Shown here piece after piece: positions 8,067 through 13,181 of a DNA stretch of 64,000 bases. Each line of letters opens with the position of its first letter. Positions within the stretch are counted from its first letter, which is position 1. Origin of the DNA: Desulfonauticus submarinus. Lineage in GTDB: Bacteria; Desulfobacterota; Desulfovibrionia; Desulfovibrionales; Desulfonatronovibrionaceae. Position numbers and translations under genes: made by a program. The stretch lies in assembly GCF_900104045.1 (NCBI RefSeq), contig NZ_FNIN01000002.1, forward strand, positions 248,001 through 312,000, in the 5' to 3' direction. The notes under the pieces are model-generated. The model made no database searches. It worked only from the letters and a program-made list of their open reading frames with translations, and was not told the DNA's origin.

Positions 8067-9347
8067 ATGAATTATCGATTTTTCCCTAACTTCACAAAAG
8101 AAGAGTTAGCTAAGATTCAATTAGAAGGACTAAAATGGACAGTAAATCACGCCTATCAAGGAAGTGCTCAATATCAAAAAAAACTTAAAAAATCTGGTAT
8201 TCATCCCAACGATATTAAATCCTTAGAAGATCTACAATATTTACCTTTTACTACAGTAGAAGATTTACGCGAAGGATATCCATTACCTCTACTTTCTGTA
8301 CCTGAAGAAGAAGTAGTAAGAATCCATGCCTCTTCTGGAACCACAGGAAAGCGGAAAGTACTAGCATATACTCAAAAAGACATAGATACGTGGAAAATAA
8401 TGCTTGCCAGATGTTTTGAATTGGCTGGTTTATCTCCTCTAGACAGAATACAAATTGCTGTTGGGTATGGATTGTGGACAGCTGGGGCCGGATTTCAATT
8501 AGGATGTGAATATTTTGGAGCTATGGCCGTTCCTATTGGACCAGGCAATTTAGATATGCAACTTCAATTATTAGTAGATTTTCAAACAACTTGTCTTTGT
8601 TCTACAGCCTCTATGGCTCTTCTTTTAGCAGAACAAGTTAAAAAACATCAACTCCAATCTAAAATTGCTTTAAAAAAAGCAATCTTTGGCGCAGAACCAC
8701 ATACTCCTAAAATGCGAAAGTACATAGAAGAAACATTAAACCTAGAAGATACTTTTGATATTCCAGGTATGACAGAAGTTTATGGTCCAGGCACAGGTCT
8801 AGAATGCAGCGCACACCAAGGAATACACTATTGGGCTGACTTGTTTATCTTAGAAATCTTAGACCCTAATACTCTTAAGCCTGTTCAACCTGGAGAAGTA
8901 GGAGAAATGGTTATTACAACTCTTTGTAAAGAAGCTGTTCCTCTTATTAGATATCGCACTAGGGACCTAACAAGATTTATTCCAGGAGAATGTTCCTGTG
9001 GATTAAATCTTCCACGACATGATCACATATTAGGAAGATCTGATGATATGTTTATCTTTAGAGGTGTTAATATCTATCCTGGCCAAATCGCAACTATTTT
9101 AGAACAATTCCCTGAATTGAGTTCAGAATATCAAATCTACTTAAATCGAAAACAAGGCTTAGATTTTATGACTATAAAAGTCGAAGCTCAAGAAGGGACA
9201 ACAATTCCTGATAACTTAGCAACTGCAGTAGAAAAAAATATCAAAACTAAAATTCTTGTTAGCTCAAAAGTAGAAATTGTACCTCCATTAAGTCTTCCTC
9301 GTTCTTTTGGAAAAACTAAAAGACTTATAGATGAAAGAGATAACTAA
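8067..9347 (+). CDS. paaK: Phenylacetate-CoA ligase-like AMP-forming enzyme
   Basis: A 426-residue cytoplasmic adenylate-forming enzyme of the PaaK group, which activates phenylacetate or related aryl acids with ATP and CoA. The AMP-binding loop is HASSGTTGKRK near residue 90, then MTEVYGPGTG, YRTRDLTRF and HDHILGRSDDMFIFRGVNIYP near the C-terminal hinge. Length is typical (about 430). The RBS GGAG precedes the ATG by 8 bases. It stands alone and converges on the AI-2E gene with a 9-base gap. Sulfate reducers often carry such ligases for aromatic or fermentative 2-oxoacid pathways; the true substrate is not visible from the sequence. Confidence 0.9.
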   Translation: MNYRFFPNFTKEELAKIQLEGLKWTVNHAYQGSAQYQKKLKKSGIHPNDIKSLEDLQYLPFTTVEDLREGYPLPLLSVPEEEVVRIHASSGTTGKRKVLAYTQKDIDTWKIMLARCFELAGLSPLDRIQIAVGYGLWTAGAGFQLGCEYFGAMAVPIGPGNLDMQLQLLVDFQTTCLCSTASMALLLAEQVKKHQLQSKIALKKAIFGAEPHTPKMRKYIEETLNLEDTFDIPGMTEVYGPGTGLECSAHQGIHYWADLFILEILDPNTLKPVQPGEVGEMVITTLCKEAVPLIRYRTRDLTRFIPGECSCGLNLPRHDHILGRSDDMFIFRGVNIYPGQIATILEQFPELSSEYQIYLNRKQGLDFMTIKVEAQEGTTIPDNLATAVEKNIKTKILVSSKVEIVPPLSLPRSFGKTKRLIDERDN

Positions 9348-10518: not shown

Positions 10519-10911
10519 CTATTTATCTGGATCTATACTGTTAATGATCCAATTAAGAGCTATTTTTTCCCAATTTACAATAGAGGAAGCATCAATATAC
10601 CTCTCCCAATCGTATATTCCTGTTTTTTTAGCAATACATTGAAATTGCATTTTAGTAACAGCACTCCTTAAAACAACCACTGAGCGACTCATGCCTTTTT
10701 CTTTATATAATCTCTGTCCTTCCTCTATGTATTTTTGCAGTTCAGGAGGAAGAGGATCCATTAAACGCATATCCACTAAAACACCAAATGATGGTGGAGC
10801 ACTATCCAAAACTTTCCTAGACTTTTCAACCCACTCTTTTACTTCTTCCTCCTGCAAAAGTCCTTCAAAGGTAATTTTATATCCATAGTTCTTTTTTTCA
10901 ATTTTATACAT
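10519..10911 (-). CDS. STAS/SpoIIAA-like small protein, unknown role
   Basis: A 130-residue soluble protein. The pattern of an N-terminal beta pair (YKIEKKNYGYKITFEG), a helix (EEVKEWVEKSRKVLDS), a buried strand (FGVLVDMRLMDPL), a further helix and a strand (SRSVVVLRSAV) resembles the SpoIIAA-like or STAS fold. The family is a guess from this secondary-structure order and not from a diagnostic motif. There is no signal peptide. It is a single gene ended by a strong terminator at 10451-10492. The closest functional hint is that STAS-type proteins act as anti-sigma antagonists or small-molecule binders. Confidence 0.6.
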   Translation of the reverse strand: MYKIEKKNYGYKITFEGLLQEEEVKEWVEKSRKVLDSAPPSFGVLVDMRLMDPLPPELQKYIEEGQRLYKEKGMSRSVVVLRSAVTKMQFQCIAKKTGIYDWERYIDASSIVNWEKIALNWIINSIDPDK

Positions 10912-11043: not shown

Positions 11044-12654
11044 TTAAGAAGTGAAATATTTAAAGGCCTTATCTACAACAGACTTATCTGGTACACTAAA
11101 TAAACTTACCCCTATTGCCAATAAAAAGGATACAGGAAGAGCAACGACATTAGGATCTACCCATTGTAAAAGCCAAATCCAAGATCCCTTTGTAGCTCCT
11201 GCTACTAAGGTAACTTTACCAAAAAACAATTTGCATAATCCTATTGCCTTTGCCTCTTTTAAATGAATAAATAAAAGCCAGAACATAGAAAATATAAATC
11301 CACCAACTAAAGAACATTTAGCCCCAAGAGGAGTCATCCTTTTCCAATACAATCCCAAAAAATAGCTTGGAAGAAAAGAAGCTGCACATAGACCAAAAAA
11401 GAATGCAGTAGCTCTTGCAATCACAGAGCCGGGTAAAATCCAAGCCCATAAAAGAGCAGCAGCTACAGTTAAAAACACTCCGATCTGACTTGTCTTAAAA
11501 GAAGTCTTGGTCGAAAGTGTAGAGCCTTCTACAATATCTCTTCCCAAAGAGGTACCTCCCACATGATATTGAGAAGATAAAGTAGACATAGCTGCAGCAA
11601 ACATTGCAATTAAAAATAAACCAGAAAACCAGTGTGGCATTATCTTTTCAATATAAAGAGGAATAATTTTATCAATATTACCTTTGGCCATGGCAATAGA
11701 AATCTGACCAAATTCTTTATAAAAAACTGCATTAGAAAGGGCTCCTACAGTAAATGCCACCCCTGTCATAAGCAAAATAAACACTCCTCCTACAAGCACA
11801 GCACGATGCAACTCTCTATCTGATGGAACAGTCATATATCGCAAGGCTAATTGAGGTTGAGCCAAAACTCCAATCCCAACTCCATAAATGATAGTAGTAT
11901 AAATAACTAACCAAATTGGTGTTCCAAACTTTGCCCCTTGTGTCCAGCCAATAAGACCTCCTGCCTTTAATTTAGCAGGGACAAGATGGACCATATCTGT
12001 TAAAGTTTGATGAGCTGAAATTACTCCTCCTAATTTAGAATAAGTAAATACTATTAAAAAAATCATCATTCCTGCCATAATACATCCTTGGAATGCATCA
12101 GTATACATAACAGCTTTAAGCCCTCCTGTAATAACATAAAGAGCGACTAAAACCGTAACCAAAACTAACCACATTTCGTAGGATATGCCCAACGATTGCG
12201 CAAAAGAAACTTCTAACATCCTACAAATACCTATCAAAACTGCTGCTGCATACAAGGGAATAAAAAGAAAAATGATTAAAGCAGAAAATTTTTGAATAAA
12301 AGTGGAATTAAAACGCCTACCTAAAAATTCAGGAAATGTATGAGCATCTAAAGCTAAGCCCATAACTCTAGTTCGTCTCCCAAAAAAAACCATGGCCACT
12401 AAAATTCCTACCACAATATTTAAAAAAGTAAGCCAAAGTAAAGGAAAACCAAATAAGGCCGCTGCTCCTCCAAAACCAATAATTGCTGAAGTAGAGATAA
12501 AAGTCGCTCCATAAGATAATGCCATAACAAAAGCATTCATTTCTCTACCAGCTAGCAAATAATCTTGAGAGCTCTTTGTATGTTTATAGCCCTTATAACC
12601 TAAAAAAAATACTACCCCTAAATATCCTAAAATACTAAGCACCTTATAAATCAT
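11044..12654 (-). CDS. Sodium:solute symporter (SSS family)
   Basis: A 536-residue membrane transporter with about thirteen hydrophobic segments. Family features include the N-terminal YLLAGREMNAFVMALSYGAT, the SATFIS-like Na+ region, FPEFLGRRF, and ITGGLKAVMYTDAFQG, which is the best-conserved SSS signature. The fold is LeuT-like and imports a solute with Na+. Substrate cannot be read; relatives carry acetate, proline, pantothenate or other carboxylates. Translation is probably coupled to the 52-residue partner gene upstream, which it overlaps by 11 bases. Expression probably passes through the leader terminator at 12825-12856. Confidence 0.9.
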   Translation of the reverse strand: MIYKVLSILGYLGVVFFLGYKGYKHTKSSQDYLLAGREMNAFVMALSYGATFISTSAIIGFGGAAALFGFPLLWLTFLNIVVGILVAMVFFGRRTRVMGLALDAHTFPEFLGRRFNSTFIQKFSALIIFLFIPLYAAAVLIGICRMLEVSFAQSLGISYEMWLVLVTVLVALYVITGGLKAVMYTDAFQGCIMAGMMIFLIVFTYSKLGGVISAHQTLTDMVHLVPAKLKAGGLIGWTQGAKFGTPIWLVIYTTIIYGVGIGVLAQPQLALRYMTVPSDRELHRAVLVGGVFILLMTGVAFTVGALSNAVFYKEFGQISIAMAKGNIDKIIPLYIEKIMPHWFSGLFLIAMFAAAMSTLSSQYHVGGTSLGRDIVEGSTLSTKTSFKTSQIGVFLTVAAALLWAWILPGSVIARATAFFFGLCAASFLPSYFLGLYWKRMTPLGAKCSLVGGFIFSMFWLLFIHLKEAKAIGLCKLFFGKVTLVAGATKGSWIWLLQWVDPNVVALPVSFLLAIGVSLFSVPDKSVVDKAFKYFTS

Positions 12655-12802
12655 TGGATTTCTCCTTATGTAAGTCTATTCTTTTTTCTACAATAAGTCC
12701 TTTTTTATTCCAATTAATAAGACCATAAATTACACATACTCCAGCGGCTAAAATACTTAAAATATACGCCAATGCCATTTCAAAACTCCCCATCCCTAAC
12801 AT
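12644..12802 (-). CDS. Small accessory subunit of the symporter
   Basis: A 52-residue protein: MLGMGSFEMALAYILSILAA then CVIYGLINWNKKGL and a charged tail. It has one hydrophobic segment (about residues 8-28) and a short cytoplasmic end. A very strong RBS, AAGGAGGAG, ends 4 bases before the ATG at 12802, and the gene overlaps the symporter start by 11 bases. Such tiny single-span proteins are known directly upstream of SSS symporters in Desulfovibrio-type genomes (called symporter small accessory protein). It probably helps fold or stabilise the transporter. It is below common ORF-length cut-offs, so it is easily missed. Confidence 0.8.
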   Translation of the reverse strand: MLGMGSFEMALAYILSILAAGVCVIYGLINWNKKGLIVEKRIDLHKEKSNDL

Positions 12803-12824
12803 CTTCTCCTCCTTTTTTTAAAAT

Positions 12825-12856
12825 AAAAAAAAGGCCGCTGGTTTTCACCTGCGGCC
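12825..12856 (-). terminator. Terminator-like hairpin in the symporter leader (attenuator candidate)
   Basis: On the minus strand GGCCGC (12856-12851) pairs with GCGGCC (12838-12833), with an inner ACC/GGT pair, then eight T follow (12832-12825). Only about 9 bases separate the T run from the RBS of the small symporter subunit gene. No promoter fits between, so transcription of the operon must cross this element. The only gene upstream (13182, plus) is divergent, so it is not the terminator of another operon on this strand. The plus strand also shows six T after the stem. Confidence 0.7.
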
Positions 12857-12861
12857 TTTTT

Positions 12862-12948
12862 TCTTCTTTTTATTTTTATAGACTACTATCACTTGGCCGC
12901 AGTTCTATAACGACCAAAAAAATAATAGCCATAAAAATAAAAAGAAGA
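12862..12948 (-). repeat. Long imperfect hairpin upstream of the terminator
   Basis: An 18-bp perfect inverted repeat (12862-12879 against 12931-12948) encloses a 51-base apical part that can pair further with mismatches. The apical part holds GGCCGCAG at 12895-12902 on the plus strand. Its RNA copy on the minus strand, CUGCGGCC, is exactly complementary over 8 bases to the first arm of the terminator (12849-12856). This gives two mutually exclusive pairings and so the layout of a transcription attenuator or riboregulator. A palindromic mobile remnant is the alternative reading. Confidence 0.6.
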
Positions 12949-13181
12949 TACTACCTGGTTATTCATAGAAAATTTTATTAAAATAAATAAATATAGTCGT
13001 CAAACCTTTTCTTTCTAAACGGTCAAAAATCATCGCTAATAGAGCAAAAAACACATTAAAAGGTTAATGATCAATTATAAATTATTAAAAATCATTTTCT
13101 TTAAAGATCCCTTTTTCTAGGTATTAATAATTTTAATTAAGACGTGTTGACGAAACTATTTTTCAAAGTTAAAAATAATTT
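12949..13181. other. Remaining gene-free stretch before the stress-protein gene
   Basis: An AT-rich region (part of the 379-base gap 12803-13181) without a credible ORF. It should contain the promoter of the symporter operon on the minus strand and that of the stress protein on the plus strand. TTGACG at 13147-13152, 17 bases and TAAAAA at 13170-13175 could serve the latter, but would put the transcription start at or next to the ATG at 13182. Confidence 0.4.

Follow-up and report, generated by a model that had tools for sequence, protein, structure and literature searches.

The operon of a sodium:solute symporter (SSS) in Desulfonauticus submarinus is very probably preceded by a ribosome-mediated transcription attenuator of the trp/phe type, and not by a riboswitch. 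The element lies in the 64,000-nt stretch of DNA analysed here (hereafter the window). Attenuators of its kind, built on aromatic codons, form a family that spans the Desulfovibrionales and would also control the operon for aromatic amino acid biosynthesis. A preliminary description of the region had proposed that termination before the symporter operon is decided between two mutually exclusive folds, "as in riboswitches or protein-controlled attenuators". The two folds are kept in relatives, but the predicted sensor is a translated leader peptide with Phe and Tyr codons.

Results

Read along the minus strand, the interval from the divergent gene (13182) to the first structural gene (12802) contains in this order a promoter-like sequence, an ATG, a short ORF, the 3′ arm of a hairpin, a terminator and eight T. 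The first structural gene encodes a small accessory protein of 52 aa (12644-12802, minus; NCBIfam NF045580, 50.6 bits, cut-off 35) and overlaps the start of the gene for a 536-aa SSS transporter (11044-12654, minus; Pfam PF00474, E 8e-52; TIGR00813, E 2e-53, just below its cut-off). PF00474 and NF045580 are both above cut-off, which places the pair among the SSS symporters with a small accessory protein. A 130-aa protein encoded directly downstream of the symporter (10519-10911, minus) has no Pfam match and lies beside none of the relatives' symporters.

The intrinsic terminator (segments 3:4; 12825-12856, minus) stands ahead of the first structural gene, as the preliminary description had it: a GC-rich stem-loop at 12856-12833 (GGCCGC-A-GGT-GAAA-ACC-A-GCGGCC) followed by eight T at 12832-12825. 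The 18-bp inverted repeat reported there is also exact, the arm TCTTCTTTTTATTTTTAT at 12948-12931 having its exact complement at 12879-12862 (minus), and so is the 8-base complementarity of CTGCGGCC (12902-12895) to GGCCGCAG (12856-12849). The long hairpin is bigger than had been stated and spans 12948/12949 to 12861/12862. Folding and sequence place its 5′ arm, segment 1, which holds the Ser-Phe/Tyr codons, at 12922-12949 (minus) and its 3′ arm, right after the leader stop codon, at 12861-12888 (minus). The apical stem of this 1:2 hairpin (TTGGTCG/CGGCCAA) buries the antiterminator strand, segment 2 (12895-12902, minus), when no ribosome is present. Segment 3 (12849-12856, minus) can pair either with segment 2 to give the antiterminator or with segment 4 to give the terminator. 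RNA folding of 12803-12972 yielded -65 kcal/mol (z = -8.0), whereas its dinucleotide shuffles averaged -31.6 (sd 4.2); without the terminator, the remaining upstream part yielded -41.4 kcal/mol (z = -7.75); in neither case did any shuffle equal the native value.

An ORF of 25 codons (12966-12889, minus), overlooked in the preliminary description, overlaps the long hairpin. It runs from the ATG at 12966 to a TGA ending at 12889 (ATG AAT AAC CAG GTA GTA TCT TCT TTT TAT TTT TAT GGC TAT TAT TTT TTT GGT CGT TAT AGA ACT GCG GCC AAG TGA) and encodes MNNQVVSSFYFYGYYFFGRYRTAAK, with 4 Phe and 5 Tyr. These nine codons fall in or beside arm 1 of the long hairpin, and segment 2 is contained within the last leader codons ACT GCG GCC (Thr-Ala-Ala). 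Such a plan, a short ORF with clustered regulatory codons (9 Phe/Tyr in 25 codons) placed before a terminator, is that of the trp and phe attenuators. Because Phe and Tyr account for at least one third of the residues in 7 of the 415 short ATG ORFs of the window, the peptide, with its mixed Phe/Tyr codons in an A+T-rich genome, is not decisive from the window sequence alone. A chance peptide born of A+T-rich sequence, plausible for the peptide by itself, is excluded by its conservation in G+C-rich relatives.

Indeed, leader peptide, antiterminator and terminator are kept before the same operon of small accessory protein and SSS symporter in 17 Desulfovibrionales species. In the 16 species other than D. 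submarinus, a Phe-rich ORF occupies the same place (6-12 Phe in 27-41 codons) and is followed by the same terminator. Several of these genomes are G+C-rich, so base composition does not explain the Phe-rich ORF. The aromatic codons of the relatives are overwhelmingly Phe, whereas those of the window leader are mixed Phe/Tyr. The leader ORF, segments 2 and 3 and the terminator keep near-constant distances from one another across the 17 species, and conserved columns outside segments 2, 3 and 4 are mostly Phe codons. The preliminary description had staked its idea on conservation of the stems in close relatives, and the idea survived: pairing holds in 98% of the terminator cells, where 3 pairs covary with changes on both sides, and in 91.5% of the antiterminator cells, a share that drops to 33-45% once the antiterminator is shifted by one to three columns. 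Compensatory changes in the antiterminator are few. In the relatives, a 1:2 helix other than that of the window pairs the opening 24 nt of the leader with the region that follows segment 2. It varies in sequence among species, but its two arms co-evolve: pairing of each species' own arms beats all 20,000 permutations across species. Seven aligned 29-codon leaders of the Pseudodesulfovibrio type display synonymous TTT/TTC changes, with 80 synonymous and 151 non-synonymous pairwise differences. In the relatives that have the leader, none of the genes neighbouring the window operon was found next to the symporter, which indicates that the leader travels with the two genes. No such leader was found in the more distant homologues examined, from Desulfarculales-type bacteria and some Desulfovibrio.

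The effect of a translating ribosome was calculated by masking the nucleotides that it covers, codon by codon, and scoring whether segment 3 pairs with segment 2 while segment 4 is still to be transcribed, a calculation that leaves out kinetics and pseudoknots. For the window leader, the antiterminator has a probability of 0.00 on ribosome-free RNA. The value reaches ~0.8-0.99 while the A-site is on codons Tyr10 to Gly18, an interval that holds 7 of the 9 Phe/Tyr codons, and is 0 after Arg19, from codon 20 on; with the ribosome at the stop codon, the terminator folds. Calculated in this way, the antiterminator, which excludes the terminator, has its 5′ strand freed when a ribosome occupies the regulatory codons and hidden when one reaches the stop. 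The leader of the other Desulfonauticus behaves in the same way. In the other relatives, segment 2 is likewise free during a stall on Phe codons and covered once the ribosome is at the stop, but the equilibrium model does not predict termination in them without a ribosome. A terminating default in untranslated RNA is predicted, then, only for the two Desulfonauticus species.

Where would transcription start? A putative promoter (13003-12975, minus) lies upstream of the ORF, the long hairpin, the antiterminator strand and the terminator, with a -35 box TTGACG (13003-12998), a 17-nt spacer and a -10-like TAATAA (12980-12975). A promoter downstream of the terminator was considered and rejected: in keeping with the preliminary description, which had found no room for one, the promoter scan listed no minus-strand site within 12802-12832. 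The -35 box is located ~36 nt ahead of the leader ATG in the window. Of the 17 symporter leaders, 16 have TTGAC 35-37 nt ahead of their ATG; of 40 others, sampled among the matches of the covariance model described below, 33 have it 35-40 nt ahead. This distance suggests that transcription starts on the leader AUG or a few nt from it. No Shine-Dalgarno sequence is visible before the window leader ATG, and almost none of the 17 symporter leaders carries anything like one (one GAGG, in L039). The promoter position suggests that the leader ORF is translated from a leaderless mRNA.

A covariance model built from 15 leaders matched 272 of 297 Desulfovibrionales genomes. The genome of D. submarinus contains, besides the window element, one other strong match (C2:171408-171535, minus; L160, outside the window; 81.7 bits), whose leader MNVQLSNHNLSYFWFFWYYYFMRACGLEGEL mixes Phe, Tyr and Trp codons. 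This second copy heads an aroA'-aroB'-pheA-aroA-tyrA-trpE operon, encoding ADH synthase, 3-dehydroquinate synthase II, chorismate mutase/prephenate dehydratase, EPSP synthase, prephenate dehydrogenase and anthranilate synthase. No convincing Phe-rich leader was found directly beside the pheA gene in L111, because the leader is at the head of the operon, ~2 kb upstream. The pheST locus was also located in the D. submarinus genome. Among the best 30 matches of the model, 28 precede the symporter and 2 ADH synthase; in a sample of 40 others, ADH synthase follows 25 and the symporter 14, and 1 falls at a contig edge.

Beyond the order, the model matched 14 genomes (E <= 1e-5) among the 395 taken from the phylum. 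Leaders rich in F/Y(/W) precede ADH synthase in three of them (L178, L188, L189); in six (L179, L180, L181, L182, L184, L196) leaders, most of them with aromatic codons, precede DAHP-synthase-like genes of several types, called by sequence motif rather than by model; and in two (L186, L195) Phe/Tyr-codon leaders precede 3-dehydroquinate-synthase-II-like genes, called by eye. In L185 (G450:C43:2250-2365, minus) a Phe/Tyr-rich leader with terminator stands before the gene for the alpha subunit of indolepyruvate ferredoxin oxidoreductase (IOR; 757 bits). Two further matches, before a DMT-type permease-like gene (L183, G338:C68:8498-8592) and a metallo-hydrolase-like gene (L187, G568:C1:29118-29233), have a weak or absent aromatic leader and are possibly chance or another target.

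Discussion

We propose the following model for the window element. Transcription would begin at or next to the AUG of the 25-codon Phe/Tyr-rich leader. When charged tRNA-Phe or tRNA-Tyr is scarce, the ribosome would stall on codons ~10-17 and open the long 1:2 hairpin, leaving CUGCGGCC (segment 2) free to pair with segment 3; this pairing would block the terminator and allow transcription of the small accessory protein and the SSS symporter. When the amino acids are plentiful, the ribosome would reach the stop codon and cover segment 2, so that segments 3 and 4 form the terminator. If translation does not take place, the long hairpin would bury segment 2 and transcription would also stop.

Two exclusive folds ahead of a transporter gene, in a terminator-antiterminator layout that riboswitches also use, could also be expected of a metabolite riboswitch or a protein-bound attenuator, where a small molecule or an RNA-binding protein stabilises one of the folds. 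We regard this as very improbable, since no riboswitch class of Rfam 15 matched the window leader or the leaders of relatives and of the family at threshold, the conserved element is a Phe-codon ORF with no conserved aptamer, and the 1:2 stem differs in sequence among species. The T-box model gave no match at its gathering score and is not among the weak matches, which are many over the leader and come mostly from unrelated A/U-rich or hairpin families. The closest Rfam model is the Phe leader itself (RF01859 Phe_leader): the window leader scores 47.2 bits (E 6e-7) where the gathering score is 55, and the model had no match at threshold in 11 relatives either. No Rfam family of any kind reached its threshold on these leaders; the window leader would work like a phe leader but is no member of RF01859. 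One could also suppose that a constitutive terminator merely adjoins an unrelated A/U-rich hairpin, that their complementarity is due to chance and that the symporter is expressed through partial read-through. The long hairpin is indeed A+U-rich, with a sequence specific to its own species, and F/Y-rich short ORFs do arise by chance in this genome. Yet chance would have to account for an ORF, segments 2 and 3 and a terminator kept in 17 species at near-constant spacing, and for the recurrence of the same arrangement before aromatic biosynthesis genes, so that we give this explanation the least credence of all.

Attenuation in response to Phe is classical in enteric bacteria, and leaders that read several amino acids are known from ilvGMEDA (Ile/Val/Leu) and thrABC (Thr/Ile). 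The window element shares with the enterobacterial pheA leader (pheL, RF01859) a Phe-codon leader peptide, a 1:2 hairpin, a 2:3 antiterminator and a 3:4 terminator; it differs in its symporter target, its combination of Phe and Tyr codons, a promoter adjoining the AUG and its Desulfobacterota host. It resembles ilvGMEDA and thrABC in that one leader reads several amino acids, here an aromatic mixture (Phe/Tyr, and Phe/Tyr/Trp at the biosynthesis operon). A precedent for the leaderless arrangement is the trpL attenuator of Sinorhizobium meliloti (rnTrpL), an Alphaproteobacterium, whose RNA starts at its ATG and is translated by leaderless initiation (PMC7298713). That attenuator has Trp codons and controls trpE(G), and the corresponding start in the window is a promoter prediction.

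A paper of 2005 lists, from the Merino structure-prediction database, a putative attenuator before the aroA'-aroB'-pheA-aroF-tyrA-trp supraoperon of Desulfovibrio vulgaris (PMC1173090), which is very probably an ADH-synthase member of the same family; the passage that lists it gives no leader peptide, codon content, symporter copy or distribution. That table entry was all that our searches of the freely accessible literature returned, with no report of the leader peptides or of the symporter target. The mechanism is known; the family, its aromatic-mixture leaders, the leaderless layout and the symporter target appear to be unreported in the searchable literature. A survey of 2013, restricted to four Rfam amino acid leaders, proposed that such attenuators may have a gammaproteobacterial origin (PMC3766115). 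According to our results, phe-type attenuation would operate across a whole order that lies outside the Gammaproteobacteria. With this family, translation-coupled regulation could be tested in anaerobes on predicted leaderless mRNAs, and so could the way in which a single RNA design may be retuned by codon changes among Phe-only, Phe/Tyr and Phe/Tyr/Trp sensing.

What does the symporter carry? The attenuator yields a substrate prediction for a symporter family that has no assigned substrate. As the symporter would be under Phe control and other members of the family control aromatic biosynthesis, the simplest reading is that it most likely imports phenylalanine or related aromatic compounds. 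Carboxylate carriers are known within the SSS family, and the IOR reaction can proceed in the direction of arylpyruvates, as described for methanogens. It is conceivable, although we consider it less than an even chance, that the attenuator works as described and that the substrate is an arylacetate such as phenylacetate, a precursor of phenylalanine via an aryl-CoA ligase and IOR. Symporter homologues adjoin paaK-type ligases in L048 and L049, iorA, iorB and two ligases in L085, and iorA/iorB in L102; an F/Y-rich leader with terminator precedes iorA in L185; D. submarinus encodes an IOR of its own; and a phenylacetate-CoA-ligase-like (paaK-like) gene (8067-9347, plus) lies near the window symporter on the opposite strand. 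However, the operons of L048 and L049 have no visible leader, the linkage to ligases or IOR is limited to few loci and the genome has its own phenylalanine pathway. In the same tentative vein, an undescribed and mainly Desulfovibrionales family of leaderless attenuators reading Phe, Phe/Tyr or Phe/Tyr/Trp might constitute an RNA-only aromatic regulon, comprising ADH/DAHP synthase, DHQ synthase II, IOR and an arylacetate-importing symporter that feeds phenylalanine synthesis through IOR.

Two symporter operons stand in tandem in L177, where each has its own Phe-rich attenuator (G170:C1:3866714-3866852 and 3868923-3869060, minus), and another genome (G075) also carries two tandem symporters.
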